Shown piece after piece: positions 21,404 to 60,984 of a stretch of 64,000 nucleotides of DNA (position 1 is the stretch's first letter; each line of letters begins with the position of its first letter). The stretch comes from Persicirhabdus sediminis (GTDB lineage Bacteria; Verrucomicrobiota; Verrucomicrobiia; Verrucomicrobiales; Akkermansiaceae), in assembly GCF_016595495.1 (NCBI RefSeq), contig NZ_JAENIM010000039.1, forward strand, positions 354,659 to 418,658, written 5' to 3'. Under the pieces are notes generated by a model. The model did no database searches. It was not told where the DNA came from and saw nothing but the letters and a program-made list of their open reading frames with translations. The position numbers and the translations under genes were made by a program.

Positions 21404-22573
21404 CTAGTTTTGTTCGGTGATTTGGTGAATCCAGCCAGCCAGCGTGACGATGTACAGCTCACCCTGACCATCTTGGCCAAACGAGGCGATGCTTCGCAGG
21501 CCACCATTTTCAGCTTTGAGAATATTTGACCAATCTTTCAGCTGCGCCGCCTTGCCTGCTTCTACCTTGAATGACCAAACGTGCGGCGTGACGTAGTCGG
21601 CAAAAAAGTAGTGGCCGTCTAGCGATTTGATTTTCCCGCGGTAAACGCAGCCACCGGTGATAGATAAACCTTCGCCCGCGGCTGAGCCGTGCGCGTAAAC
21701 GTGAATTGGGTCGATGGCGCCAGCTGGCTTTTTGCCGCCCGCTTTTTTGTTGGGGGTTTCTATCAACCCTTCACGCAGCCGCCAGCCAAAGTTGGCGCCG
21801 CCAGCAGATCCAGCTGGTAGATAGTTAATTTCTTCCCAATGGTTCTGCCCAACATCGGCAATATAGAGGTCGCCAGATTTGGCATCAAAAGTGCAGCGCC
21901 ATGGGTTGCGCAAGCCATAGGCCCAGATCTCATTCAGCGCTTTATCATCATTCACAAATGGGTTGTCGCCAGGGATGGAATACGATTTCTCCACAGAAAC
22001 ATCCAAACGGAGAATTTTCCCAAGGTGAGTTTTTAAGTCTTGGCCAGCATCTTTTGGGTCGTTAGCCGCGCCGCCGTCACCAATACCCGCGTAAAGAAAT
22101 CCATCAGGGCCAAATTCTAACCAGCCGCCATTATGATTTTTGTACGGTTGATCAATGGTGATTAGTTCTTCCTTAGTCGCAGCATCCGCTGTCATCAGCG
22201 AGGCGTCCGCTCTGAATCTAGCAATTTTCACCGCGTGATCAGCATCTGTATAATACAGGTAAAATCGTCGTGAGCTGGAGTAATCTGGGCAGAAGGCCAT
22301 GCCGAGAAGTCCTTGTTCGTTAGCTTGCACATCGATCACTGAGGTGAAATCCATGAAGAGCTTGGGTTGGCCAGTAGCTAGATCATAGCTGTAGATCATG
22401 CCTTCTTTTTCTACCACCCAGACTTTGCTGTTCTCCCCAGCTGGGGAGCCTAACCAGAGTGGCTTGTCGAATTTATGACTTAAGGTTTTGAGTTGTATCG
22501 GTCCAGCTAGACTCGCTGTGACGCTCGCTATTAATGCTAGAGTAAGATGTGGGAGAGTGCGCATGAATTGCAT
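21404..22573 (-). CDS. Secreted PQQ-dependent glucose/sorbosone dehydrogenase-like protein
   Basis: Beta-propeller of the soluble glucose/sorbosone dehydrogenase family (as in YliI/Asd), which oxidises aldose sugars with pyrroloquinoline quinone. 389 aa; a second ATG at 22564 is also possible. A signal peptide ends near A-S-L-A-G. Family landmarks: N-H-N-G-G-W-L-E-F-G-P-D-G with the catalytic-type His, G-I-G-D-G-G, G-K-I-L-R-L-D, A-Y-G-L-R-N-P-W-R and D-V-G-Q-N-H-W-E-E-I-N. No PQQ biosynthesis genes are in the window, so the cofactor may be imported or made elsewhere. Adjacent to the porin and GH2 genes, it may process released sugars; that link is inference. Confidence 0.88.
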   Translation of the reverse strand: MQFMRTLPHLTLALIASVTASLAGPIQLKTLSHKFDKPLWLGSPAGENSKVWVVEKEGMIYSYDLATGQPKLFMDFTSVIDVQANEQGLLGMAFCPDYSSSRRFYLYYTDADHAVKIARFRADASLMTADAATKEELITIDQPYKNHNGGWLEFGPDGFLYAGIGDGGAANDPKDAGQDLKTHLGKILRLDVSVEKSYSIPGDNPFVNDDKALNEIWAYGLRNPWRCTFDAKSGDLYIADVGQNHWEEINYLPAGSAGGANFGWRLREGLIETPNKKAGGKKPAGAIDPIHVYAHGSAAGEGLSITGGCVYRGKIKSLDGHYFFADYVTPHVWSFKVEAGKAAQLKDWSNILKAENGGLRSIASFGQDGQGELYIVTLAGWIHQITEQN

Positions 22574-22742
22574 TATAGTGATGACGGTCTATCTGCCAAG
22601 GATTTGCATGAGCCGAATTACCTGCCTAGCTGGTGACTTGTTGTATCCTAGACGGTGTTCCGGCGCTAGGTGATCGATTGCAAAGTTAACGTATGTTTAA
22701 CCTTGATTGAATATAGCCTTCTGCTAATTGTTGGAGTTAGTG

Positions 22743-24380
22743 ATGAAAAAGTTAATCTATCTGAAATTGTCGCTTGCCTGTCTGAGTTTTCAGTTGGTGC
22801 AGCTGCAGGCAGCGGAACAACAAGCTGTGGTTGAGGCCGATGATGCCGCCGCTATCTTGAAAGAAATTCGCTCTATGCGCAGCGAATACGAGGCTCGTAT
22901 CGCCAAATTGGAAAACCGAGTGATCGAGTTAGAAGGAAAAAATGCTGAGTTAAAAAACTCGGTGAAGAAGCAGAGCAATGACATTGATAGCTTAGCGAAA
23001 AAATCTAGCAAGCCAGCTGCAGTGACGAGTACGGCAACCGCAGCCACTAACTATGGCGCTAAGTCAGGCATGCCAACGGATCTTGCTCCATCACATGATG
23101 AAAGTGAGACTCCAGCTGGTTTTGCGACTCAGCTTACCGAGGATGGATTGACCAAAGGTTTTGAGTTTCATGGATATTTCCGCTCTGGTTATGGCATCAA
23201 TGAAAATGGCGAGGTGATGGAGGCATTCAAAAACCCAGGTGCGCAATCTAAATTCCGCTTGGGTAACGAGACAGAAACTTATATCGAAACGGCCTTCAGC
23301 TATCATTTCCCCGAGTTAGATCTAGATGATGGTAAAGAATTTATGGTAGCCGTTAGGACGTCGTATGTAATTCCCGATGCTTTGGGTTCTGATAGCACAC
23401 TGAGTATTCGTGAAGCTTATGGTCAGGCATTAGGTGTTTGGGAGGCTCGCCCTGAAGTTAGTTTTTGGGCTGGTCAGAGGTTTTACGACCGCTGGGATGT
23501 GCATATGTCGGATTTCTACTATCTCGATATGAGTGGATTTGGTGGCGGTATGGAAGGTTTAGACCTCGGTTTTGGTAAGCTATCGGTCGCGTGGTTAGGC
23601 GGTAGTATTGATGCATTGAATTCTAACGCGTCAGAGGAGCTCAATGAGGTGAATACAAAAAACAGCATCGATTTTCGTCTTTCCGATATCGAACTTGGGC
23701 CAGGTGTTGGTTTTGTTTGGCTCGATCTAGCTGATCTCGACGATACTTTTAAACCTAACGAGCAGAATGTTGTTGTTAATGGTTCTGGTGGTATAGCTGG
23801 TGGATTTTCCTATGAACTGCAGGATGTGTGGGGTGGTTACAGCCGCACCATGGTGCAGTACGGTGTAGGGGCAGCAGCTAAATTTAGAACCACTCAGGAA
23901 GATTACAGCTTCTTGGATCTGCCTACAGATCCGCTCACTCCGACCGTGGTGAATACGGACGATAGCTGGCATTTTCGTGCGGTTCAGGATCTAGTCATTC
24001 AGCCTAACGAGTGCGTGAGCATGCAGGGCACGATTGTTTGGGATGAAGTTGATGTGGGTGTTGAGGGCATGGACTCACGTAATAGTTGGGTCTCATTTGG
24101 TCTGCGTCCTCAGTATCATTTCACCGATCATTTTAGCGTCGCATTGGAAGCTGGTATTGACTATGTCGATAGCGATCTGTTTGACAGCGGAACAGTTTAC
24201 AAATTTACCATTGCTCCTCAGCTAACGCCCAAGCGCGATTATTTCTCTCGTCCTGCATTGCGCCTATTCTTGACCTGGGCGACTTGGTCTGACGACTTAG
24301 AAGGCTATGTAGCACCACGGACTAACGGCGATGATACTAGCGGTCTATCAGCTGGTATTCAGGTTGAGTCATGGTGGTAA
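22743..24380 (+). CDS. Maltoporin (LamB)-like sugar porin with N-terminal coiled coil
   Basis: Outer-membrane beta-barrel for carbohydrate diffusion. 545 aa from the ATG at 22743, which has a GGAG Shine-Dalgarno at 22733-22736. Signal peptide to about residue 23. The LamB hallmark G-Q-R-F-Y-D-R-W-D-V-H-M-S-D-F-Y-Y is near residue 245, followed by many alternating amphipathic strands and a C-terminus ending in Trp-Trp, consistent with an outer-membrane sorting signal. Classical LamB lacks the coiled coil of about 50 residues found here after the signal peptide (R-S-M-R-S-E-Y-E-A-R-I-A and following), which may tether the trimer or bind peptidoglycan. Substrate unknown. Confidence 0.85.
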   Translation: MKKLIYLKLSLACLSFQLVQLQAAEQQAVVEADDAAAILKEIRSMRSEYEARIAKLENRVIELEGKNAELKNSVKKQSNDIDSLAKKSSKPAAVTSTATAATNYGAKSGMPTDLAPSHDESETPAGFATQLTEDGLTKGFEFHGYFRSGYGINENGEVMEAFKNPGAQSKFRLGNETETYIETAFSYHFPELDLDDGKEFMVAVRTSYVIPDALGSDSTLSIREAYGQALGVWEARPEVSFWAGQRFYDRWDVHMSDFYYLDMSGFGGGMEGLDLGFGKLSVAWLGGSIDALNSNASEELNEVNTKNSIDFRLSDIELGPGVGFVWLDLADLDDTFKPNEQNVVVNGSGGIAGGFSYELQDVWGGYSRTMVQYGVGAAAKFRTTQEDYSFLDLPTDPLTPTVVNTDDSWHFRAVQDLVIQPNECVSMQGTIVWDEVDVGVEGMDSRNSWVSFGLRPQYHFTDHFSVALEAGIDYVDSDLFDSGTVYKFTIAPQLTPKRDYFSRPALRLFLTWATWSDDLEGYVAPRTNGDDTSGLSAGIQVESWW

Positions 24381-44892: not shown

Positions 44893-45534
44893 ATGCAAAT
44901 GAAGATTTCACCGTATTTCCAGCTAGCTGCTAGTCTATTTGTTTCAGTTAGTATTGCACATGCCGCACCGTGTCCTGCTGAGGGCGATTGTGAGGTGTGT
45001 AAGGCCGCCGATGAGAGCAGTGAGAGCTGCGCGGCTGATTGCCAAAACGAGCTGTGTGCTGCAGCTATCAAAGAAGCAAAGTTAGTCAAGCTAGCCTATC
45101 TCGTCGATGGTATGAAATGTGAGTCTTGTTCAGCCGTGATTAGCAAGTCGCTAGAGAAGCTAGAGGGAGTGACTATTATTGACCTGTCTCCTTACAATAA
45201 GCTTGTTAGCGTGAAATTCGATCCAGAGCTGAGCTCTGCAGAAGCTGTCGCCAAGGCGATTGATGATGCCAAGTTCGACATTGTTGGTGAGCGAGTGACC
45301 CTTGCCGTTGATGGTATGAGCTGTGGTAGCTGTGAGAAAAAGATTTCTACTGAGATTGCTAAATCCAAGGAGATGAAGCTCATCAGCGTGAGTGCTGATA
45401 AGGGTTTGTTAGTTGTCGATGTGCGTCCAGCTGAGCTCGAGCTTGAAGAAGGTGAAGAGGCCGCTGAGCCAGTGGTACCAGCTGATATGGTTGCCAGCGC
45501 AGTTAAGTTAGCTGGTTTTAAAGTAGTTAAGTAG
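44893..45534 (+). CDS. Secreted tandem heavy-metal-associated (HMA) domain protein
   Basis: 213 aa with a signal peptide ending near residue 25. A Cys-rich segment (Cys27, 33, 36, 46, 50, 55) follows, then two HMA domains with metal sites M-K-C-E-S-C (Cys76/79) and M-S-C-G-S-C (Cys144/147). HMA domains normally carry Cu(I), Zn or Cd in the cytoplasm or on P-type ATPases; a periplasmic protein with two such sites and six further cysteines suggests a metal buffer or chaperone. It could serve the TonB receptor at 24.5-26.7 kb, but the two are not adjacent. The start gives a clean N-terminus. Confidence 0.85.
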   Translation: MQMKISPYFQLAASLFVSVSIAHAAPCPAEGDCEVCKAADESSESCAADCQNELCAAAIKEAKLVKLAYLVDGMKCESCSAVISKSLEKLEGVTIIDLSPYNKLVSVKFDPELSSAEAVAKAIDDAKFDIVGERVTLAVDGMSCGSCEKKISTEIAKSKEMKLISVSADKGLLVVDVRPAELELEEGEEAAEPVVPADMVASAVKLAGFKVVK

Positions 45535-48882: not shown

Positions 48883-48898
48883 CTGAACAAATGTTCAG
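48883..48898 (+). promoter_or_regulatory. Palindrome CTGAACA-AA-TGTTCAG upstream of giant protein 1
   Basis: Perfect 7-2-7 palindrome. Its core AACAAATGTTC is also found upstream of the paralogue (55022-55032). In both, the C of GTTC lies 37 bases before a TTGACA hexamer (48933 and 55069). The fixed spacing suggests an operator or activator site shared by both genes. Confidence 0.5.
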
Positions 48899-48932
48899 CA
48901 GTGTCGTTTGGGGTGTTTGTTTAGTTTTGCTT

Positions 48933-49013: not shown

Positions 49014-52000
49014 ATGAATCTACCCAGGGGTGTAATGAGGCAGGCACTGCCCATATTACTAACACTTTGCTCGGCGAACGCGCAAAGTCTCGTGCTTAAT
49101 AACACGAACAAAACCTATACCGAAAAGCAAAGTTTTGGATCTAACGCTGCTTATAGCTCTTTTGAGCTAAAGAATAGAGCAACGGCGGATATCTCAAATA
49201 CTTTATCTTTGCAGGACGGACAATTATCTCTCAACAACTCAACTCTATCATTGATAGCGCTTGATGTAGCTGATGGAAATATTGAACTAACAAACGGCTC
49301 GGTGCTGCGAATCTATCCATCAGAGTATAGTGATTCTGATATAGGAAAGGATGTAGCACTACATAAGTCTGTAACTGATACTACTAGCAGGGCTGCTAAT
49401 AAAGGGTTTCAGATGGTTACAGGCAACTTGTATAACCAATGGAAAAGTTTAGCTAACACCGATAAATATCCAGCTTACGCGCGTATTGACTTAGGTAAGG
49501 ACTATATGGTGAACCGTTGGCGTGTTTCACACCACGGCGCTAAGAGCTCTAACGAAACTGACCAGAATACCAAAGGCTATAGACTTCAGTATAGTACGCA
49601 ATCCAATCCCGGTATCAATACTGATTCGCATTGGAAAAACTTGGATGTTCTTACCGATAACGCTGCTAGTATAACAGATCGTCTGTTTGAGCCAACGAAA
49701 ACTCGATACCTGCGCATGGTCGTTGACGTGCCAACGCAGAATAACAAGTCTGGTGAAGAGCTTAAAGTTCAGCTGTTAGAAGTTTACTCTTCTTATCCAA
49801 ATGGTTATCCCGATTGGTATTCTTCATCTGATAGAGTGAAGTTTAGTGGAACGTTCACAGCTGATAGTAGCTCAAAGCTTGAGCTGATTTATCCAAAAAA
49901 CAGCACGCTGCCTAAGTTTGTAAGGCCGTTCTGCACAGAACAAGAAGCTGCCAAAACCAATGTCTACATTGGTAGAGAGTCTGATAGTAATCTGACCAAG
50001 ATGGAGTATGCTTATCGCCGTTGGATTATTCCGGGTCAATTTTCCGATCTTTACGATCCTCAGGGGGGAACAGATTATGTCATTTCAGATAACACAAGCT
50101 CTTCAGATGAGCTGTGGACTCAGAATGGCAATAACTCAGTGAAGTATACTGGTGGTACACATGTCGTTGATACCGTGATTAACATCGGTGGATCTAATGG
50201 CGACAGCAGTAACCATCTAGTACTGAACGGAGCTAACCTGACTGTCTCAGGACAAGAGGTGAGCCTTGGTGGATCTGCGGGTCAAAATACCATTACGGTA
50301 GAAAACGATTCTACACTTGATGGTGGCCATTATGTTTGGGTTGGTAACAACTCTAGCGGCAACCAAATTTCAGTTAACAACTCGACTCTGAAAGCATCCA
50401 AAGTTCTTGTTGGTGATGGCAATACACTCAGCCTAACGAATGGTAGTAAGCTCATTCTTGATGCTTACTCAGAGACAATGGACTCATCGCTTGGTCATAG
50501 TTGGGCAAATAACTCTGCCTATCTTGACATCCGAGGTGATTTCAAAATTGAATCTGGTTCAGCCATTTACTTGAGCTATCCATCAGAGGATGCATTGCCG
50601 TTAGCGGTCAACTTATTGCATTATGAGTCGACTTCAGCTGCTTACGATCTCCTGCAGCAAACTCCAGTTTACGCATTCTGTGCACAGACTGGCAAGCAGG
50701 TGACCTTGGAATATAATAAGGGTTTCTGGGTTCAGCCAGGCATGCTTCCAGCTAACTTTGAACTGCCATTTAAAGAGACAGGTAAAACTGAGGTTTCTTA
50801 CATGGCTGAAGATGCATTCTCACCAGAACGTGTGGAAGAAGGGCGTAAGATCTATCAAGAGATGTGTGCTCTTTGTCACGTAGACAGTGGTAAAGATATG
50901 CCTATGTTTGGTGCAGCCTTTGGTGATGTTCGTGTTGTTTCTAGTACCAAGAAGTTTGCTGGAGCCTTAGGTGATCCAGAAGCGGGTGAGAAGGTGTATG
51001 AATTCCTACGCTATAATCACCCTGGACCATTCCAGGAATTTGGCGATGCATTCCTGCAGCCTGGTCCATTGGCATTGAAACCTGGTAGTCTTAACCCGGT
51101 ACTTAATACAAACCACGATTTCTTCACCGCTTGGACTGGATATACTTATCCAACAATTGAGGATGTTCACTTTGACTTGAACGATTATAACCGCACCCAA
51201 ATGCTTACTAACAAGAAGCGTTTGTCATGGATGGAGTGGATGCCACATTCAGTTCCTCCAGCGATTTCAGATGATGCAGTGAAAGCGCATATCGCCTCAA
51301 ACGGCACATCTCCTAGCTCACTACATGGTGCAGCCGAGCTTAACCGTTGGTTCTGGCGTGATCGATATGGATATGAAGAAGTAAAAAGTGCTGTGAAGCA
51401 AGACGGCTGGAGCTATGACGGTATTGTCATGGCGCAGTACGCGCAGGGCTCATGGATTGCCATGCAGTCATATGAACATCACCTGCCTGATTGGGTAGAT
51501 GGTAAGTGGAGCAAACCTGGTAACTGGCAGTTTGAGTTAGACTCAGCTGTTAACGTTGAAATTCACCAGCACGGTGTACGCAATAAACACAATGACGTTG
51601 AGGGTAACTCTCGTCGTAAGGAATGGTTCGCTAGGATGAAACATGGTTGGTGGGATTTCAGTAGTGGAATTGCCCCTAACCGTGACCCATCAAAAGGTAC
51701 AGCTTACGGCCCGTGGGGTTGTTGGTTAGGAACATACGGACAGAGCATGAAGTTTTTCCACTCCATGACATTGAAGTATTTCACCTACAATAAAGCGGTT
51801 GCTGAATATGCGAATAAGGGCACGAAATCTCGTGATAACAGAGATTTACATGCCTATGAGCCTAAATATAACGAAGATAACTGGAGAGTTAGTTATCATC
51901 AACACGCGCCATTTATTGAGCATGCTAACTACCTAGATTGGAAATATTATTTAGGTCAAGGTGGTGGCTCTAGCGGTGGCTACGATTGTATGGCCTGTGA

Positions 52001-54833
52001 AGGTCAAGATTCAAAATGTAGCTATTGTGGTGGTGACGGTTACCTTGCTGATAATGTCTATCACTCTACCTGTGGTGGCTGTGGTGGCGGCGGCTGTAGC
52101 TCATGTGACGGTCGTGGTTTTAATGTCAACAGCGGTGTCGCACCTGCTGGTCACGCTGATCTTTACCAGATGAGCGTGGAGTACGGTACTGAGCGTGAGC
52201 AGCGCTTCAGACGTGCCTTTGTACAACGTCACAACAGAGACGCAAGCTGGGGTGGAGCACTGACTTCTCCTGTAGTTCTCTGTCGCGGAACAGAACACGT
52301 AGGTGTGGGTGATGAATATACTTTGTTTATCATGCGCATGCAGGGGCAGGATGGCGACATTTCTATCACAGCTAGTGATCTTCCTAATGGCGCTAGGTTA
52401 GTGAGCCAGAATGATGGTTTTAAGATTAAAGATTACTACGTGAAGTGGACACCTACTGCGAGTGATATTGGAAATCATACCTTCAAGATCAAAGCTTCTA
52501 GCTCACAATATTCTGGTACTGATACTCAGACGGTTACTCTTAAAGTTAGCCAGCTGGGACCAGAGCCAACATTAGATCCTATCGATGAGATTCAAACTGT
52601 TCGAATCGGTCAGTATCTGACAATGCCATTTTCTATCAACAGCGACTACCGCAAGAAAATGGAATTTGAAATGGTTGGTAATGTTGGCATGGCATTCCAG
52701 AATCACCGCAAGCGTGGTGGTATCTATTACATCAAACCTGATGAAAGTGATCTAGGTGTGCACAAACTAACATTTATTGCTAGGGATGAGCACGGTCGTG
52801 AGAACAAGCAGACAATGATGCTAGAAGTACTACCTAATAGTGCGCCTAAGATCAGCTTTGTGGAAATGGGCCAAGGACCTGGTGCCTTCAAAAACATCTT
52901 CCGCGGTAAAGCGGGGGAAGAGATCCGTATGCGCATCGCCATTTCAGACCCAGAAGGCGACGAAATCAAGATCTCTACGAGCCACGGTTACCCTGGTAAG
53001 ATTGAGAAAAAATCAGACGGGACTTATGAGTTTGTGATTACTGTCACAGATGACATGGCCGAGCACTTACGTGGACCTAACGTATTTACCGTTGTGGCCC
53101 AAGATCATTGGGGCGCAGAAGGTCATCTAGTAACTCTGGTTTACTTTGAACCACGTGGATCAAATGATAACAATCACCCATGGGCAGTTACCCCAAGCGT
53201 GCAATACGTGTACGGTGGCGAGAAAGTCTATCTTGATGGATCAGCATCTGATGATCCAGATGGCGATGCTATTTCATATCAGTGGGACCAAGTCAGCAAA
53301 TCAGGCGTGCCTAATGTGAGTTTGACTAGCAGAAAGCAAGTTGTGGCATCATTCACAGCGCCTAGTGTTAGCGAGCAAAAGATTCTGAAGTTCACTCTTC
53401 AGGTGACTGATAGCAAAGGGGCGACTGATTACAATGTGGCACGTGTTGTTGTGCTGCCAGGTGAGCGTCCTCGCATACCAGTGTCTCAGCTAGCAAATCT
53501 GAATACTTATTCTGATAGTCAGGCGAGTGATTACAAAATGGTTACTGGTGTGGCTGCAATGATCTACGAAGCCGAAGACGCTTGGTTAGATGGTGTGTCT
53601 GTTACTAAGTATTCTGGCGCAAGTGGTGGCGAAGTTGCCCAAATTGCGAATTGGGAAAGCGGATCCATTCTGTGGCACGTTCCAGCTGAAGAGGCCGGTA
53701 ACTATTCTGTGCGAGTTAATGTACAGAAGGCAAATGCCTCGGAGAATGCTAGCGGAAGAATTAAAATGATGGTCAATGGCAAGTTAGTTGGCACATTTAA
53801 TCCTTTCGATAAGCAGGGGCCATTTACTGAGATTGGTGCGAAAAACTACGGTGCTAGTATTGGAGCCATCTATACAATCGCAGCATCACAGGGGTCATCA
53901 TATATTCAACAAGCTCCATTAGTAGCTGGTGTGAATAAAATTGAGTTATTGGTAGAGAATACTAATAACAAGACCTGGGGAGTAGATAACATGATGGTAT
54001 ACTGCGCGCCAAGTAATGAGTACGAATCCGTTGTGATTGAAGATTCAGTGGGCGGTACACTTCCGCCACTAGCTGCTATCCCTGACGGTGCAGTGTACTT
54101 GAGCGATCTATCATGGAGCTCTAAGAATGGCGATATGTGGACTGATAAAGTCAACGGCGCTGCCTTAGTCTATGGTAAGCATACCTATAAAAAGGGACTA
54201 GGGTTTAGAGTCGACGCTGAGGTCAGCTACAAACTCAATGGCAACTATTCCTTGTTCTCAGCTGATACATTTGTGCCTGCTGCAGGAAATAGAACCATCT
54301 ACTTTGAGTTCTATGCGGATAATAAGAAGGTCTTCAGCTCGGTGCAATCACCTAGCCAGAACCCAACAAACTGCCTGCTTGATGTGAGTGGTGTGACTAC
54401 ACTTAAAATCGTTTGCTACTTAAAGAGTGGAACGAAGCCATCAGGATATGCCGTTGTGGGCGATGCCTTCTTGCTGAAGCCTAGCGACTATCATGATTGG
54501 TTTATCAGTCAAGGTGGTATTGAGAACCTTCCAGCAGCCTTGAGGTTTGCCTATAAACAAGCTAACATTACCTACAAGCGTTATGCCTTCGGCGACCGCA
54601 ACAGTAAGATCAAGGGGAATGGTAAAGGTCAGTTGGAGTTCGAATACGATTACCGTCCAGGTCTAGACTATCAGATGGAAATTTCCTCTGATTTGAATCA
54701 CTGGATGCCTTGGGAGCCTGATTCAGGTTCGGTTACCGAGATTGGCGGTAATGGCGATTACAAGACTCGTAAGCTACTCTTTAGTAGTGAAGAGAATGAA
54801 AAGCTATTCTTGCGTGTTAGCACGGAAGACTAG
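49014..54833 (+). CDS. Giant secreted multidomain protein 1: heme c, zinc-knot and carbohydrate-binding domains
   Basis: 1939 aa, unknown function, exported (signal to about residue 24). Order: beta-rich segment 25-105; discoidin/F5-8C-like domain about 110-262; low-complexity beta-helix-like repeats about 370-500; cytochrome-like domain with a single heme motif C-A-L-C-H (618-622); an unrecognised Trp-rich region about 690-985; a knot of four CxxC pairs (992 to about 1031) resembling the DnaJ zinc finger; three Ig/cadherin-like domains (about 1105-1385); a PKD domain about 1387-1485; a CBM6-like domain about 1500-1665; an NPCBM-like domain about 1680-1825; and a C-terminal beta domain. Roughly two-thirds identical by eye to the next gene. 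A strong terminator follows. A role in polysaccharide binding plus redox is inference. Confidence 0.85.
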   Translation: MNLPRGVMRQALPILLTLCSANAQSLVLNNTNKTYTEKQSFGSNAAYSSFELKNRATADISNTLSLQDGQLSLNNSTLSLIALDVADGNIELTNGSVLRIYPSEYSDSDIGKDVALHKSVTDTTSRAANKGFQMVTGNLYNQWKSLANTDKYPAYARIDLGKDYMVNRWRVSHHGAKSSNETDQNTKGYRLQYSTQSNPGINTDSHWKNLDVLTDNAASITDRLFEPTKTRYLRMVVDVPTQNNKSGEELKVQLLEVYSSYPNGYPDWYSSSDRVKFSGTFTADSSSKLELIYPKNSTLPKFVRPFCTEQEAAKTNVYIGRESDSNLTKMEYAYRRWIIPGQFSDLYDPQGGTDYVISDNTSSSDELWTQNGNNSVKYTGGTHVVDTVINIGGSNGDSSNHLVLNGANLTVSGQEVSLGGSAGQNTITVENDSTLDGGHYVWVGNNSSGNQISVNNSTLKASKVLVGDGNTLSLTNGSKLILDAYSETMDSSLGHSWANNSAYLDIRGDFKIESGSAIYLSYPSEDALPLAVNLLHYESTSAAYDLLQQTPVYAFCAQTGKQVTLEYNKGFWVQPGMLPANFELPFKETGKTEVSYMAEDAFSPERVEEGRKIYQEMCALCHVDSGKDMPMFGAAFGDVRVVSSTKKFAGALGDPEAGEKVYEFLRYNHPGPFQEFGDAFLQPGPLALKPGSLNPVLNTNHDFFTAWTGYTYPTIEDVHFDLNDYNRTQMLTNKKRLSWMEWMPHSVPPAISDDAVKAHIASNGTSPSSLHGAAELNRWFWRDRYGYEEVKSAVKQDGWSYDGIVMAQYAQGSWIAMQSYEHHLPDWVDGKWSKPGNWQFELDSAVNVEIHQHGVRNKHNDVEGNSRRKEWFARMKHGWWDFSSGIAPNRDPSKGTAYGPWGCWLGTYGQSMKFFHSMTLKYFTYNKAVAEYANKGTKSRDNRDLHAYEPKYNEDNWRVSYHQHAPFIEHANYLDWKYYLGQGGGSSGGYDCMACEGQDSKCSYCGGDGYLADNVYHSTCGGCGGGGCSSCDGRGFNVNSGVAPAGHADLYQMSVEYGTEREQRFRRAFVQRHNRDASWGGALTSPVVLCRGTEHVGVGDEYTLFIMRMQGQDGDISITASDLPNGARLVSQNDGFKIKDYYVKWTPTASDIGNHTFKIKASSSQYSGTDTQTVTLKVSQLGPEPTLDPIDEIQTVRIGQYLTMPFSINSDYRKKMEFEMVGNVGMAFQNHRKRGGIYYIKPDESDLGVHKLTFIARDEHGRENKQTMMLEVLPNSAPKISFVEMGQGPGAFKNIFRGKAGEEIRMRIAISDPEGDEIKISTSHGYPGKIEKKSDGTYEFVITVTDDMAEHLRGPNVFTVVAQDHWGAEGHLVTLVYFEPRGSNDNNHPWAVTPSVQYVYGGEKVYLDGSASDDPDGDAISYQWDQVSKSGVPNVSLTSRKQVVASFTAPSVSEQKILKFTLQVTDSKGATDYNVARVVVLPGERPRIPVSQLANLNTYSDSQASDYKMVTGVAAMIYEAEDAWLDGVSVTKYSGASGGEVAQIANWESGSILWHVPAEEAGNYSVRVNVQKANASENASGRIKMMVNGKLVGTFNPFDKQGPFTEIGAKNYGASIGAIYTIAASQGSSYIQQAPLVAGVNKIELLVENTNNKTWGVDNMMVYCAPSNEYESVVIEDSVGGTLPPLAAIPDGAVYLSDLSWSSKNGDMWTDKVNGAALVYGKHTYKKGLGFRVDAEVSYKLNGNYSLFSADTFVPAAGNRTIYFEFYADNKKVFSSVQSPSQNPTNCLLDVSGVTTLKIVCYLKSGTKPSGYAVVGDAFLLKPSDYHDWFISQGGIENLPAALRFAYKQANITYKRYAFGDRNSKIKGNGKGQLEFEYDYRPGLDYQMEISSDLNHWMPWEPDSGSVTEIGGNGDYKTRKLLFSSEENEKLFLRVSTED

Positions 54834-54869
54834 TTAGACCACGTCAGATAGACGTTTCCAGTATATTCA

Positions 54870-54906
54870 GGCAAGGTTGATCTAGCGATTGACCTTGCCT
54901 TTTTTT
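54870..54906 (+). terminator. Terminator of giant protein 1
   Basis: GGCAAGGT/ACCTTGCC stem with a central 14-base region, then seven T. The same arms recur after the paralogue. Confidence 0.9.
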
Positions 54907-55143
54907 AGCTCCGCGATTTTTCCGCTAAGTCTGCAAATCCCCCTTTTAGTGTAACGTTTTAGTATTGTCGTTACTCGTTTACTGAGAATGAGTTAATGGG
55001 GGGTTATTGGGCCGCTCTCTAAACAAATGTTCGGCTAGATTTATCTAGTGTCAAAACTTGTTTTACTTTTGACAAGGCGTGTCTAGCTAGGCGTTATAGA
55101 TGTATAAAATACCCCATTCCCTAGCAAATAACACAACACTAAC
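54907..55143 (+). promoter_or_regulatory. Promoter region between the two giant genes
   Basis: Contains AACAAATGTTC at 55022-55032 and TTGACA at 55069-55074, which match the elements upstream of gene 1 with the same spacing. A TTATAG at 55094-55099 is a weak -10 candidate. So each paralogue is its own transcription unit. Confidence 0.5.
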
Positions 55144-58100
55144 ATGAAAATATCAAGGGGAGCATGGAGGCAGATACTGCCCGTATTGCTAACAATGTCT
55201 GCGGCTCAGGCCAAGGATCTCGTTGTTGATAACGAGGAAAAAAATTATACTAAGCAAATCAGCTTGGGGACAGGAGGGGATTACGGTTCTCTTGAGCTAA
55301 AGGGCGAGGCATCGGTGACTATCGATAATTCACTTTATATAAGCGAAGGTGGTCAGTTGAGCCTGAACCAAGCCAGTTTATCATTGATCGCTCTGGAGGC
55401 GACTGGTGGTAATGTGCAGCTAGAAAATGGTTCGGTTCTTAGATTATACCCGTCTTCATATGAAGAGTACGCTGGTGTGGATGTTGCGTTTGGTAAAGAA
55501 GCTACCTGCAAGACGACTCGGAATAGTAATCTAGCACCGAACATGCTAGACGGGGAGATCAGTTCTCGCTGGAGAAGTCGAGCCATTGAGGATCCATTTC
55601 CAGCACATGCAATGATCGATCTCGGGGATGAGTATGCGGTTAACCGCTGGAGGGTAGCTCATCGTGGTGCTAACGAGTCTAATCAAACCTCAAATAATAC
55701 CAAAGCATTCCGTCTGCAATACTCTACGCAAGAGACTCCTGATAGAGATACTGACGAGCATTGGATCAACTTGGATGTGGTGACAGACAATTCTGAGAAT
55801 TGGACGGATCGCCGTTTTGAACCAACTCTAGCTAGATTTTTACGTCTAGCAGTTGATGAGCCAAGCCAAGCATGGGATCCGGAGACTGATGAACTCTACA
55901 TCCAGCTCTTAGAAGTATATGGTGGCTATCCATCTGGTAACCCAGAGTGGTATTCACTGGCTGATAGGATGCACTTCACGGGTTCATTCTCCATGGACGA
56001 GAGTTCTCGTATTGAGATCATTTACCCTGACGGCAGTCAGCTTCCAGCTACAGTTACACCGTATTTTTCAGCAGAAATCGCTGAGACAGCAAATGTCTAT
56101 ATTGGTTATGAATCTGACGAAGAGCTCACCAAGATGGAATTTGCCTACCGCCGTTGGATTGTTCCTGGTGCTTACACAGACCTTTACGACCCACAAGGTG
56201 ATCTTTCTTATGAAATAAATGACGAATCTAGTTTCTCCAATGAGTTATGGACACTGAATGGTAATAACTCTGTTAGCTATTTGGGAGGTTCGCACGAAGT
56301 CGGTAGTATTGTCAATATTGGTGGCGGTGCTGGTGATGATAACAACCAGTTAGTTCTGGATGGTGCTGAGCTCGATGTCTTGGAGGATGAAGTGTCTGTG
56401 GGTGATGGTGCTGGCAGCAACAGCCTCAACCTCATCAACGGTTCTACGCTTGATAGCGGTCACTATCTGTGGATAGGCAAAGAGGCTGCGGGCAATGTAG
56501 CTAACATTGATAACTCTACTTTGAAAGCAGCTAAGGTCCTCGTTGGTGATGGCAATAGCCTTAATTTGACTAACGGCGGTCGACTAGATCTAGACGCCTA
56601 TGCGGATAGAATGGATTCCCAGCTAGGTAACGAGTGGGCTAACCATTCTGCCTACCTTGACGTGCGCGGTGAAATTAACATTGATTCTAGCTCAGCTATC
56701 TATCTGCGTTACCCATCCGAAGACGCATTGCCACTAGCGGTAAACCTGCTGCATTATGAATCTTCGTCGCAAGCTTACGAGCAGCTACAACTCGCTGACG
56801 TTTATGCTTATGATGTCGTTACAGGAACTAAAGTATTGCTAAAATATAACAAAGGTTTCTGGGTTCAACCTGGTATTTTGCCAGATAATTTTGAGCTGCC
56901 ATTTAAAGAGACAGGTAAAACTGAGGTTTCCTACATGGCGGAAGACGCCTTCTCACCAGAGCGTGTCGAAGAGGGACGTAAGATTTATGTAGAAATGTGT
57001 GCGACTTGCCACGTTGAAAGCGGCAAAGACATGCCGATGTTTGGTGCGGATTTTGGTGCAGCCCGTGTGGTTTCTAGTACGAAGAAATTTGCTGGAGCGC
57101 TAGGCGACCCAGAAGCAGGTGAGAAAGTATATGAATTCCTGCGCTACAACCACCCTGGACCATTCCAAGACTTTGCTGACGCCTTTTTGCAGCCTGGTCC
57201 ATTAGCTTTGAAGCCGGGTATTCTCAATCCAGTGCTCAATGAAAATGACGATTTTTATGCAGGTTGGACAGGGTATCTTTACCCAACCATTGAAGATGTT
57301 CACTTTAATCTGAACAAGTATGACCGCACGCAGATGCTCTCTAGCAAGAAGCGGTTCTCGTGGATGGAGTGGATGCCTCACTCAGTGCCTCCAGCGATCT
57401 CAGACGATGCTGTTAAGGCTCATATTGCGGAAAATGGAACTTCACCTGCTAGTTTGTGGGGCGCGGTTGAGCTCAACCGTTGGTTCTGGCGTAACCGTTA
57501 TGGTTATGAATACGTAAACAAAAATGTAGCTGCAGACGGTTGGAGTTATGATGGCATTGTCATGGCTCAGTACGCACAAGGATCATGGCTCGCCATGCAA
57601 TCCTACGAGCATCATTTACCAGATTGGGTAGATGGAAAATGGGACAAACCAGGTAGCTGGCATTTCGAGTTAGACTCAGCTGTTAATAGGGAGATCCACC
57701 AACATGGCGTTCGTATTGGGCATACTGATGTCGAAAATAACAGCCGCCGCAAGGCATGGTTCAATAGGATGAAACACGGTTGGTGGGACTTCTGTAGCGG
57801 TATCGCACCTACTCGTGATCCGGCACTAGGGCCTAAATATGGACCTTGGGGGTGTTGGCTAATGACTTATAGTAAACCAATGTCCATGTTCCATGGGATG
57901 ACCATTAGATATTTCACCTATCACAAGTCGATGGCCGATTTTGAAAGCAAGGGCACAAAAAATCGTGACGGTAGAGATAACCAGGTTTACGAGAGAAATG
58001 GCGGTTATGGTCAGGCTGGTTATAATGAGACTGGCTTTAGACAGCACGCGGCATTCATATTGCATGCTACTTATCTCGACTGGAAATATTTCTTAGGCAA

Positions 58101-60984
58101 GGATACTGACGGGGTAAGCAATATTGATTGTTTGGCCTGTGGTGGTGAGAGCTCAAATTGTTCTGTATGTGGTGGCGATGGTATCTTGCCAGATGGTATC
58201 TATCATACCGTGTGTTCCACATGTAGCGGTGAAGGCTGTGACTCGTGTAATTATAAGGGTTATTTCAGTGGTGAAGGTGATGCACCAGCGTCGTACTCAG
58301 AGCTTCACGGGCTCTGGGCGGACTATGGTTCTGCGCGAGAAGAGCGCTATATGCGAGCTTTTGTACAACGTTACAACCGCATGCCTAAATGGGGTGGTGA
58401 ACTTGATTCCCCAGTGGTTTTGTGCAGCGGTACTGAGCACGTAGCTGTGGGTGAGGAATACACATTGTTCATCTCACGCATGCAGGGACTTGATGGCGAT
58501 ATATCTATCTCTGCTAACAATCTTCCTGATGGCGCAGTGTTAGTAGTCGAGCCAGATGGATTTGGCATCAATGATTATTATGTAAAGTGGACACCACAAT
58601 CGAGTGATATTGGCAATCATACTTTCAAAATCAAAGCTTCTAGCTCTGAGTATTCAAGCAATGATACCCAGTCGATTTCACTTCAAGTAAGTCAGTTAGG
58701 TCCAGAGCCAATCATGGATCCTATCACGGAAACGGTGACTCTTCGCCTAGGTCAGTATCTGACATTGCCATTCACTATCAATCGCAACTACCGCAAGGAG
58801 ATGGAGTTTGAGATGATTGGGTCGGCTGGCATGGCATTCCAAAACCATCGCAAGCGTGGCGGTATTTATTACATCAAACCTGATGCTTCAGACCTTGGTG
58901 TGCATAAACTAACTTTCATCGCTAGAGATGAACACGGTCGCGAAAATCAGCAAACCATGGTGTTGGAAGTGCTGCCAAATAGTGCTCCTAGCATGAGCCT
59001 TGTTGAAATGGGAGAAGGTCCTGGTCATTATAAAAACATCTTCCGTGGCAGAGCTGGTGAGGAAATCCGCATGCACATTGCGGTCTCCGACCCTGAAGGC
59101 AACAAAGTGAGAATCTCAACCAGTCACGGTTATCCTGGCACGATTGAGGAGCGCGAAGACGGTACTTATGATTTTGTGATCCCTGTCACAGATGACTTAG
59201 CTGAGCATTTGCCTGGTCCTAACGTGTTTACTATCGCTGCTCAAGACGACTGGGGGGCAGAATCCCATCTGGTGACTTTGGTTTACTTTGAACCTAGAGA
59301 TTCTAACTTAAATCACCATCCATGGGCGGTAACTCCGAGCGTGCAATACGTTTATGAAGGGGAGAAAGTCTATCTTGATGGTAGCGCTTCAGATGACCCT
59401 GATGGTGATGAAATTACCTATCAGTGGAGTAAATGGTACATTGGTAACTCTGCGGCTGATATTTCTCTGAAGCAGAAAGGTAAGGCCGTCGCGAACTTTG
59501 TAGCACCAGCTGCTAGTGAGCCAAGAATTCAAAAGTTCCATCTTCAGGTTACTGATAGTCATGGGGCTAGTGATTATAATGTCGCTCGTGTGGTGATTTT
59601 GCCGGGTGAACGTCCAACAGATGAAGAATCACAGCTGGTCAATTACAGTGCCAATGCAGCTGAGCAGTCTAGCAGTTACAAAATGATTACTGGCGTGGCT
59701 GGCATGATTTACGAAGCTGAAGATGCTATGTTGGATGGCATTCCTTATGCCACTTATGACCACAGCAATGCGGTCGTGGCTGAAGTTAGTAAAAATACAA
59801 GCGGCTCACTCATCTGGCACGTTACAGCTGCCGAACAAGGGAACTATGTGGTTAGGGTGAATACACTTGCTGCTAACTTATCTAATAGCCCTAGTGGCAC
59901 GGTGCAGCTGTTGGTTAATGGTGAGTTTGTAGATAGCTATGACATCTCCCTGCAACAGGGGCCGTACACTGCTGTTGGCACGAAAAACTATGGCCATAGT
60001 ATTGGTACCATTTACACCATTGATGCCCAACAAGGCATCGAGCATATCTTAGTTGCACCACTTACTGGTGGGGTTAACAAAGTTGAGCTCCTCATTGAGA
60101 ATACCGGCGGCTCAGCATGGGGCGTTGATAATATGATGGTCTATTGCTCGCCTAACTGTGAGGAGGAAACTGTCGTGGTGGAAAATTCAGAGATTGGCTG
60201 TGCACCTGCGCTGGCCTGCATCCCTGATGGCGCCATCTATCTCAGTGATCTCGAGTGGGATACGAAGTCAGGTAATATCTGGCTCGATACTCTCGATGGA
60301 GCGCCGCTAGCTTACGGTAGTCATACCTACGAAAAAGGATTAGGCATTAAAGCTGATACCTCAGTCAGCTATCAGCTAGCGGGTGAATACGCCAGTTTCA
60401 ATGCGGATACTTTTGTGCCGGCTGAAGGAAATCGAACCATCTATTATGAAATCCGGGCGGATGGTGAGTTGGTCTTCAGTTCGGCGCAAGCACCATTGGC
60501 TATGCCTAGTCATTGTAGCCTAGATGTTAGCGGTGTGAATACGCTGAGCTTCGAGTTCTATAGAACAGATGGGAATACGAACAATGCCTACGCAGTACTT
60601 GGTGATGCCTACTTCCTCAAGCAAGGCCAGTATGCAGAGTGGATTGCCAGCCAAGGTGGTTGTGCTGATGCTCCTGCAGCATGGAGGTTCGACTACAATC
60701 AGCCAAACTTGACCTTCCAGCGTTTTGCCTTTGGTGATGTTAGCGCCAGAATGAAAAACAAAGGTCCTGGTACAGTTGAGTACCAGTATGACTTCCGACC
60801 AGGCGTTGAATACAAGACAGAGATTTCGTCTGACTTGTCTAACTGGGTAACTTGGGAGCTAGCAGAAGATGAAGCCTTCGAAGAGGAGGATGCTTATGAC
60901 GGCTACAAAACCCGCAAATTACTCATGAGCTGCGGCGAAGAAGATAATAAAAAACTCTTCATCCGCGTGAGCGCAGAGCAGTAG
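55144..60984 (+). CDS. Giant secreted multidomain protein 2, paralogue of the preceding gene
   Basis: 1946 aa with the same domain order. Signal peptide ends L-L-T-M-S-A-A-Q-A. The discoidin-like domain is at about 110-262 and the heme motif C-A-T-C-H at residues 619-623. The cysteine knot near residue 1000 keeps eight cysteines (C-L-A-C, C-S-V-C, C-S-T-C, C-D-S-C). Ig-like, PKD, CBM6-like and NPCBM-like domains follow, then a C-terminal beta domain ending F-I-R-V-S-A-E-Q. The central region from the heme to the knot is the most conserved part between the two, suggesting it is the functional core. The N- and C-terminal sugar-binding parts are more divergent, as expected if the two bind different surfaces. 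Function unknown. Confidence 0.85.
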   Translation: MKISRGAWRQILPVLLTMSAAQAKDLVVDNEEKNYTKQISLGTGGDYGSLELKGEASVTIDNSLYISEGGQLSLNQASLSLIALEATGGNVQLENGSVLRLYPSSYEEYAGVDVAFGKEATCKTTRNSNLAPNMLDGEISSRWRSRAIEDPFPAHAMIDLGDEYAVNRWRVAHRGANESNQTSNNTKAFRLQYSTQETPDRDTDEHWINLDVVTDNSENWTDRRFEPTLARFLRLAVDEPSQAWDPETDELYIQLLEVYGGYPSGNPEWYSLADRMHFTGSFSMDESSRIEIIYPDGSQLPATVTPYFSAEIAETANVYIGYESDEELTKMEFAYRRWIVPGAYTDLYDPQGDLSYEINDESSFSNELWTLNGNNSVSYLGGSHEVGSIVNIGGGAGDDNNQLVLDGAELDVLEDEVSVGDGAGSNSLNLINGSTLDSGHYLWIGKEAAGNVANIDNSTLKAAKVLVGDGNSLNLTNGGRLDLDAYADRMDSQLGNEWANHSAYLDVRGEINIDSSSAIYLRYPSEDALPLAVNLLHYESSSQAYEQLQLADVYAYDVVTGTKVLLKYNKGFWVQPGILPDNFELPFKETGKTEVSYMAEDAFSPERVEEGRKIYVEMCATCHVESGKDMPMFGADFGAARVVSSTKKFAGALGDPEAGEKVYEFLRYNHPGPFQDFADAFLQPGPLALKPGILNPVLNENDDFYAGWTGYLYPTIEDVHFNLNKYDRTQMLSSKKRFSWMEWMPHSVPPAISDDAVKAHIAENGTSPASLWGAVELNRWFWRNRYGYEYVNKNVAADGWSYDGIVMAQYAQGSWLAMQSYEHHLPDWVDGKWDKPGSWHFELDSAVNREIHQHGVRIGHTDVENNSRRKAWFNRMKHGWWDFCSGIAPTRDPALGPKYGPWGCWLMTYSKPMSMFHGMTIRYFTYHKSMADFESKGTKNRDGRDNQVYERNGGYGQAGYNETGFRQHAAFILHATYLDWKYFLGKDTDGVSNIDCLACGGESSNCSVCGGDGILPDGIYHTVCSTCSGEGCDSCNYKGYFSGEGDAPASYSELHGLWADYGSAREERYMRAFVQRYNRMPKWGGELDSPVVLCSGTEHVAVGEEYTLFISRMQGLDGDISISANNLPDGAVLVVEPDGFGINDYYVKWTPQSSDIGNHTFKIKASSSEYSSNDTQSISLQVSQLGPEPIMDPITETVTLRLGQYLTLPFTINRNYRKEMEFEMIGSAGMAFQNHRKRGGIYYIKPDASDLGVHKLTFIARDEHGRENQQTMVLEVLPNSAPSMSLVEMGEGPGHYKNIFRGRAGEEIRMHIAVSDPEGNKVRISTSHGYPGTIEEREDGTYDFVIPVTDDLAEHLPGPNVFTIAAQDDWGAESHLVTLVYFEPRDSNLNHHPWAVTPSVQYVYEGEKVYLDGSASDDPDGDEITYQWSKWYIGNSAADISLKQKGKAVANFVAPAASEPRIQKFHLQVTDSHGASDYNVARVVILPGERPTDEESQLVNYSANAAEQSSSYKMITGVAGMIYEAEDAMLDGIPYATYDHSNAVVAEVSKNTSGSLIWHVTAAEQGNYVVRVNTLAANLSNSPSGTVQLLVNGEFVDSYDISLQQGPYTAVGTKNYGHSIGTIYTIDAQQGIEHILVAPLTGGVNKVELLIENTGGSAWGVDNMMVYCSPNCEEETVVVENSEIGCAPALACIPDGAIYLSDLEWDTKSGNIWLDTLDGAPLAYGSHTYEKGLGIKADTSVSYQLAGEYASFNADTFVPAEGNRTIYYEIRADGELVFSSAQAPLAMPSHCSLDVSGVNTLSFEFYRTDGNTNNAYAVLGDAYFLKQGQYAEWIASQGGCADAPAAWRFDYNQPNLTFQRFAFGDVSARMKNKGPGTVEYQYDFRPGVEYKTEISSDLSNWVTWELAEDEAFEEEDAYDGYKTRKLLMSCGEEDNKKLFIRVSAEQ

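Follow-up and report, generated by a model that had tools for sequence, protein, structure and literature searches.

What might be the function of two neighbouring genes that each encode a very large protein in which a single heme c attachment site and a central region without recognised relatives are flanked by putative sugar-binding modules? The question is raised by a 64,000-nucleotide stretch of the Persicirhabdus sediminis genome (hereafter the window), in which gene 1 (P0001; 49014..54833, 1939 aa) and gene 2 (P0002; 55144..60984, 1946 aa) lie in tandem on the plus strand, as do all features of the locus given below. The first-pass annotation had described two adjacent genes of 1939 and 1946 codons with a common domain order; both open reading frames are indeed real, and their products are 63-64% identical from end to end. 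Each is a giant modular monoheme c protein, and their signal-peptide-like N-termini, as read from the sequence, point to export. The same annotation had proposed a genome-wide search for paralogues, and this search found two more elsewhere in the genome, P0003 (contig C42, about 2160-2200 aa) and P0004 (contig C21, about 1710 aa), which are 38% and 36% identical to gene 1, respectively, in full alignments.

All four paralogues follow one order, namely heme region, helical core, Cys knots, Ig-like domains, PKD, NPCBM and C-terminal tail, with a core of ~430 residues after the CxxCH and the Ig/PKD/NPCBM portion behind it. The N-terminal sugar-binding modules differ: genes 1, 2 and P0004 carry an F5/8C module, P0003 a second NPCBM. 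Modules thus appear to have been exchanged around a constant core, in the manner of modular CAZymes. When the tandem, P0003 and P0004 loci were compared, no obviously common neighbour genes were seen, so that genomic context does not name a partner.

The tandem genes look separately transcribed and commonly regulated, because a strong intrinsic terminator (54869..54907; 14-bp stem and U run, -21.1 kcal/mol, z -5.3) follows gene 1 and the same palindrome stands upstream of both genes, as CTGAACAAATGTTCAGC at 48883..48899 and as CTAAACAAATGTTCGGC at 55019..55035, each time ~120 bp ahead. Genome-wide, exact copies of CTRAACAAATGTTCRGC occur at these two upstream sites only, and the upstream regions of the two genes align above 200 shuffles; the palindrome is likely to be an operator. 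A single operon is unlikely, given the terminator and a separate promoter-like region between the genes. With a gene GC of 0.42-0.49, close to that of the surroundings, recent horizontal transfer was rejected. Since dS between genes 1 and 2 is near or at saturation, we regard them as old duplicates and not as recent ones.

The F5/8 type C (discoidin) module occupies residues 137-235 in gene 1 (49422..49718; PF22633, E=3.5e-10) and 120-239 in gene 2 (55501..55860; PF22633, E=1.1e-12; PF00754, E=1.6e-9), and the NPCBM residues 1693-1806 (54090..54431; PF08305, E=7.5e-14) and 1698-1824 (60235..60615; PF08305, E=4.5e-15). Ig-like and PKD domains span residues 1086-1485 of gene 1 (52269..53468; He_PIG, sub-threshold, Big_9 and K319L-like_PKD) and, by Pfam, 1090-1490 of gene 2 (58411..59613). 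F5/8C, PKD/Big_9 and NPCBM score above the Pfam cut-off, Cytochrome_CBB3 and He_PIG below it; each of the four copies has an NPCBM above the cut-off, and three of them an F5/8C. The NPCBM region also gives the sole PDB sequence match of the whole gene 1 protein (2vmg/2vmh, E=7e-6). The discoidin-like and CBM-like regions reported at first are therefore borne out as F5/8C and NPCBM; a further CBM6/35-like stretch in gene 1 (residues 1505-1670, 53526..54023) is a sub-threshold reading of the sequence, and its label derives from a sub-threshold PF16990 match (E=0.003) in P0004. Finally, a profile of the last 95 residues (gene 1 tail, 54546..54830), searched against about 115 ORFs, ranked the four giants first, followed by two neighbouring secreted proteins of the L052 locus (E 0.001 and 0.002) and an LPMO-GH18 protein (0.04), in all three of which the match sits at the C-terminus. 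This faint similarity may weakly tie the giants to the secreted glycan-active set of the organism.

Just past the right end of the window, L052 (5987-13881) holds three tandem genes for secreted proteins of 700-1040 aa with a similar N-terminal region throughout; Pfam gave no name to this region in the one that was scanned, where PKD, PA14, fn3 and F5/8C domains come after it.

Constraint is distributed unevenly along the giants, and the heme region (residues 586-690 of gene 1, 50769..51083; 587-691 of gene 2, 56902..57216) is the slowest-evolving part. It is 92% identical between genes 1 and 2 and 70-72% among the other paralogues, against 74% and 31-47% for the core (691-985), 75-81% and 34-55% for the Ig domains, 68% and 49-60% for the PKD, and 53-55% and 7-37% for the sugar-binding segments. 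The dN values of the tandem pair agree with this ranking (heme region 0.044, Ig 1-3 0.15, core 0.19, whole protein 0.29). The earlier view that the central Trp- and His-rich region is the best conserved part has to be given up, as both the heme region and the Ig domains exceed it in the tandem pair.

Within the heme region, the attachment motif is CALCH in gene 1 (residues 618-622, 50865..50879) and CATCH in gene 2 (619-623, 56998..57012), at the residues first reported, and there is one CxxCH per protein in all four paralogues, so that among the copies of this genome the motif is conserved. It is not a chance occurrence, because it is invariant in four proteins down to 36% identity and coincides with a Cytochrome_CBB3 match that is weak in all four (best E=4e-5, below the Pfam cut-off). 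With the relatives' class I cytochromes, a profile of the heme region aligns at 97.5% probability in a block of 31 columns around the CxxCH, and there the match ends. As in class I cytochromes, the CxxCH closes an N-terminal helix, according to a low-confidence helix prediction. Three MAFFT modes agree as far as the GP(F/I) block, and the helix ahead of it is alignable with the relatives' cytochromes; the stretch beyond has no counterpart. Past the heme motif these are alignments of distant sequences and thus suggestive: they place no Met at or near the axial Met position in any of the four copies, and no counterpart of the relatives' C-terminal helix, W(I/V)AD..Y(I/V)RNSF, in the heme region. 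Across heme region and core, the only invariant Met residues are M631 and M912; H669, H719 and H745 are invariant too, and of these residues M631 and H669 lie in the heme region. As the Met stretch and the last helix have no aligned counterpart, the distal heme ligand would be a His or would be absent; and as both are features of an ordinary electron-transfer cytochrome, the heme region may not be a simple carrier. An AlphaFold2 model of this region (133 aa) reached a pLDDT of 40, too low to show whether a C-terminal helix packs on the N-terminal one.

The core (residues 691-985 of gene 1, 51084..51968; 692-989 of gene 2, 57217..58110) is rich in Trp and His, and in the alignment of the four paralogues H719, H745, C903, M912 and many Trp (gene 1 numbering) are invariant, along with many Arg, Asp and Glu. 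The first-pass annotation recognised no family here, and our searches of Pfam, NCBIfam and PDB sequences likewise returned no known enzyme family. In Pfam, the cores of the four paralogues had no match up to E=10; in NCBIfam, there were none except cytochromes and weak DnaJ/Pus10 matches, which probably fall on the Cys-rich part; and a PDB profile search matched no more than some 30 residues at the heme, with a best non-cytochrome E=0.09. PHROG gave weak, unnamed matches. AlphaFold2, run on 538 aa with 4 alignment rows, reached a pLDDT of 31, and this model is unusable because there are too few homologues; the mostly helical structure of the low-confidence model is a hint that the core may be largely helical.

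Outside this genome the core was not found. It had no match in 78 relatives (by protein), in phylum-, order- and class-level sets of 388, 387 and 384 genomes, or in 198 genomes of another class, a set without positive control; these sets overlap and comprise roughly a thousand distinct genomes in total. With E values of up to 0.01 admitted, the phylum and order sets gave short matches only, nearly all to the cytochrome motif. Two GTDB-wide motif scans, each with two short peptide patterns that are insensitive to distant relatives, were empty, which argues weakly for absence; one scan of viral contigs and one of plasmids were empty as well.

Behind the core, eight Cys form four CxxC pairs per tandem gene (residues 992-1031 of gene 1, 51987..52106; 996-1035 of gene 2, 58129..58248). 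The eight-Cys knot described at first is better seen as two consecutive four-Cys knots, CxxC-x4/6-CxxC. The clearest example is P0003, with two CxxC-x4-CxxC units, CLACDGSGCKYC and CGQCGGEGCDHC; genes 1 and 2 have both knots, the first with a longer spacer, and P0004 has kept two of the four CxxC pairs and lacks the first knot. By eye they resemble the CxxCxGxG-type four-Cys knots of the DnaJ central zinc domain (PF00684), from which they differ in their shorter spacing, in the loss of one knot in P0004 and in belonging to presumably exported proteins. Membership of that family was not borne out, with PF00684 reaching just E=0.19 in one member and no match in the others and with P0004 holding half of the CxxC pairs. 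The knots may nonetheless bind zinc. A literature search for a DnaJ-type zinc finger in a secreted cytochrome brought up no publication.

How unusual, then, is the combination of heme c with adhesive modules? The first-pass annotation overstated its rarity, at least for Verrucomicrobia, where some PSCyt proteins carry NPCBM, CBM6, PA14 or F5/8C (PMC5615132). The PSCyt1-3/PSD1-5 proteins of Planctomycetes and Verrucomicrobia likewise join heme c to NPCBM/CBM6/F5/8C in large proteins with further domains of unknown function, as in the giants (PMC5615132). Moreover, the four relatives' cytochromes that were scanned (L033, L035, L038 and L043, from the same family and order) all have a DUF7133-HEAT-Cytochrom_C-F5/8C architecture, so heme c with discoidin is no rarity in this group of bacteria. 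These proteins have the cytochrome region closest to that of the giants, over the first 31 columns, but theirs is a class I cytochrome in full, axial Met and C-terminal helix included, and its partner domain is DUF7133 where the giants have the helical core. It is the core that is the unusual feature of the giants; heme c beside discoidin or NPCBM is an established theme.

Taking these observations together, we consider, with a probability of about one half, that the giants are exported, glycan-docked modular monoheme c redox proteins. They would be loaded with heme in the cell and exported, and would bind glycan through their discoidin, NPCBM and CBM6/35-like modules, to judge from the family assignments. 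Docking would hold the heme and the helical core against the polysaccharide, and the heme could donate electrons to, or accept them from, a redox reaction on the polysaccharide itself or on a partner enzyme, with a distal ligand that may be a His (foremost H669, with H719 or H745 next in line) or with an open site. The role would presumably be oxidative glycan processing. We favour a redox function on polysaccharide because of the heme c, the cytochrome c assembly proteins encoded in the genome, the sugar-binding modules on either side and the secreted glycan-active enzymes. Among the latter is the one LPMO of the genome, a single protein that combines AA10 (LPMO_10), Calx-beta repeats, a CBM2-like module and a GH18 chitinase. 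Of the first proposal, a surface-bound redox enzyme acting on polysaccharide or a substrate-binding electron conduit, the redox function on polysaccharide remains the preferred reading; for a location at the surface the sequences offer signal-peptide-like N-termini only, and the core may or may not be an enzyme itself.

The window also holds a GH2, an alpha-L-fucosidase, a sulfatase, a GSDH, a LamB porin and a class I cytochrome. At 21404-24380 a glucose/sorbosone dehydrogenase gene (minus strand) adjoins the LamB porin gene (plus strand), a possible case of periplasmic sugar oxidation, and the protein encoded at 44893-45534 has a signal peptide, a Cys-rich N-terminus and two heavy-metal-associated domains.

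The proposed mechanism would be like that of the Cellvibrio cytochrome-CBM proteins Cbp2D and Cbp2E, with a different core. In Cbp2D, cytochrome domains are fused to CBMs, and the isolated X183 domain reduces LPMOs (PMC8981238); a Cellvibrio strain with multiple deletions requires Cbp2D/Cbp2E to grow on insoluble cellulose (PMC12542752). These Cellvibrio japonicus proteins and TERTU_3803/TERTU_2913 of Teredinibacter are, like the giants by their sequence, exported and modular, and have been implicated in polysaccharide breakdown, possibly through LPMO reduction (PMC8981238, PMC10916295, PMC12542752). The giants share the plan of Cbp2D and TERTU_3803, in which CBMs, single-CxxCH cytochrome domains and domains of unknown function are combined: a cytochrome domain and sugar-binding modules occur in one apparently exported protein, and an LPMO, the AA10-GH18 protein, is present in the same organism. 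The modules differ (F5/8C, NPCBM and Ig/PKD in the giants, CBM2/CBM10, X158 and FN3 in Cbp2D/TERTU), and the heme region of the giants does not appear to make up a complete class I domain. Against the cytochrome entries of the PDB, no sequence relation of the core was detected past the heme motif. The redox reading is weakened by the position of the AA10-GH18 gene (L051:6249-9731), which lies unlinked on the same contig, C39, ~380 kb before the giant genes, and by the X183 domains of Teredinibacter, which failed to drive their cognate LPMO (PMC10916295).

The main rival, which we hold to be possible but rather unlikely, is that the core is itself catalytic, a genuine peroxidase- or oxygenase-like enzyme built on heme c, with the bound glycan or an associated aromatic as the compound to be oxidised. 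Its iron would be five-coordinate or have a His that can be displaced, and the pocket would be formed by the helical domain, rich in Trp, His and Arg. The lack of a Met at the axial position in all four copies, the invariance of H669, H719 and H745 and the wealth of invariant Trp, Arg, Asp and Glu residues in the core would fit such an enzyme, and module exchange around a core is a habit of catalytic domains; against this, no known heme enzyme family was matched in Pfam, NCBIfam or PDB sequences, the models (pLDDT 31 and 40) are too poor to show a pocket, and conservation is lower in the core than around the heme. That heme region and core together make up a new family of single-heme c enzymes, attacking polysaccharide oxidatively and directly, independent of copper LPMOs and with sugar-binding modules swapped around them, is a still more doubtful proposition. 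It is improbable that the giants are adhesins or matrix proteins with a structural or vestigial heme c: most of their length does consist of Ig-like, PKD and sugar-binding domains, with no catalytic domain recognised, but no segment is under stronger constraint than the heme region (dN 0.04 against 0.29 for the whole protein), the opposite of what a vestige would show. Least probable is a divergent membership of the planctomycete-type PSCyt/PSD cytochrome family, which shares the theme of heme c with NPCBM/CBM6/F5-F8 (PMC5615132) and whose PSD4 proteins are abundant in relatives, but which is largely refuted by the absence of any PSCyt or PSD Pfam match in the four cores even at E<=10, by a profile-profile comparison with 30 PSD4-bearing proteins that aligned 15 columns around the CxxCH at 2.5% probability, and by one heme motif in place of the usual two.

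If the giants are glycan-docked redox proteins, as we prefer to think, their modified heme c joined to sugar-binding modules would represent a second, apparently unrelated design besides Cbp2D/E. They would offer an independent system for testing how electrons are supplied to bacterial oxidative polysaccharide breakdown, and their core is an obvious place to look for a new fold.
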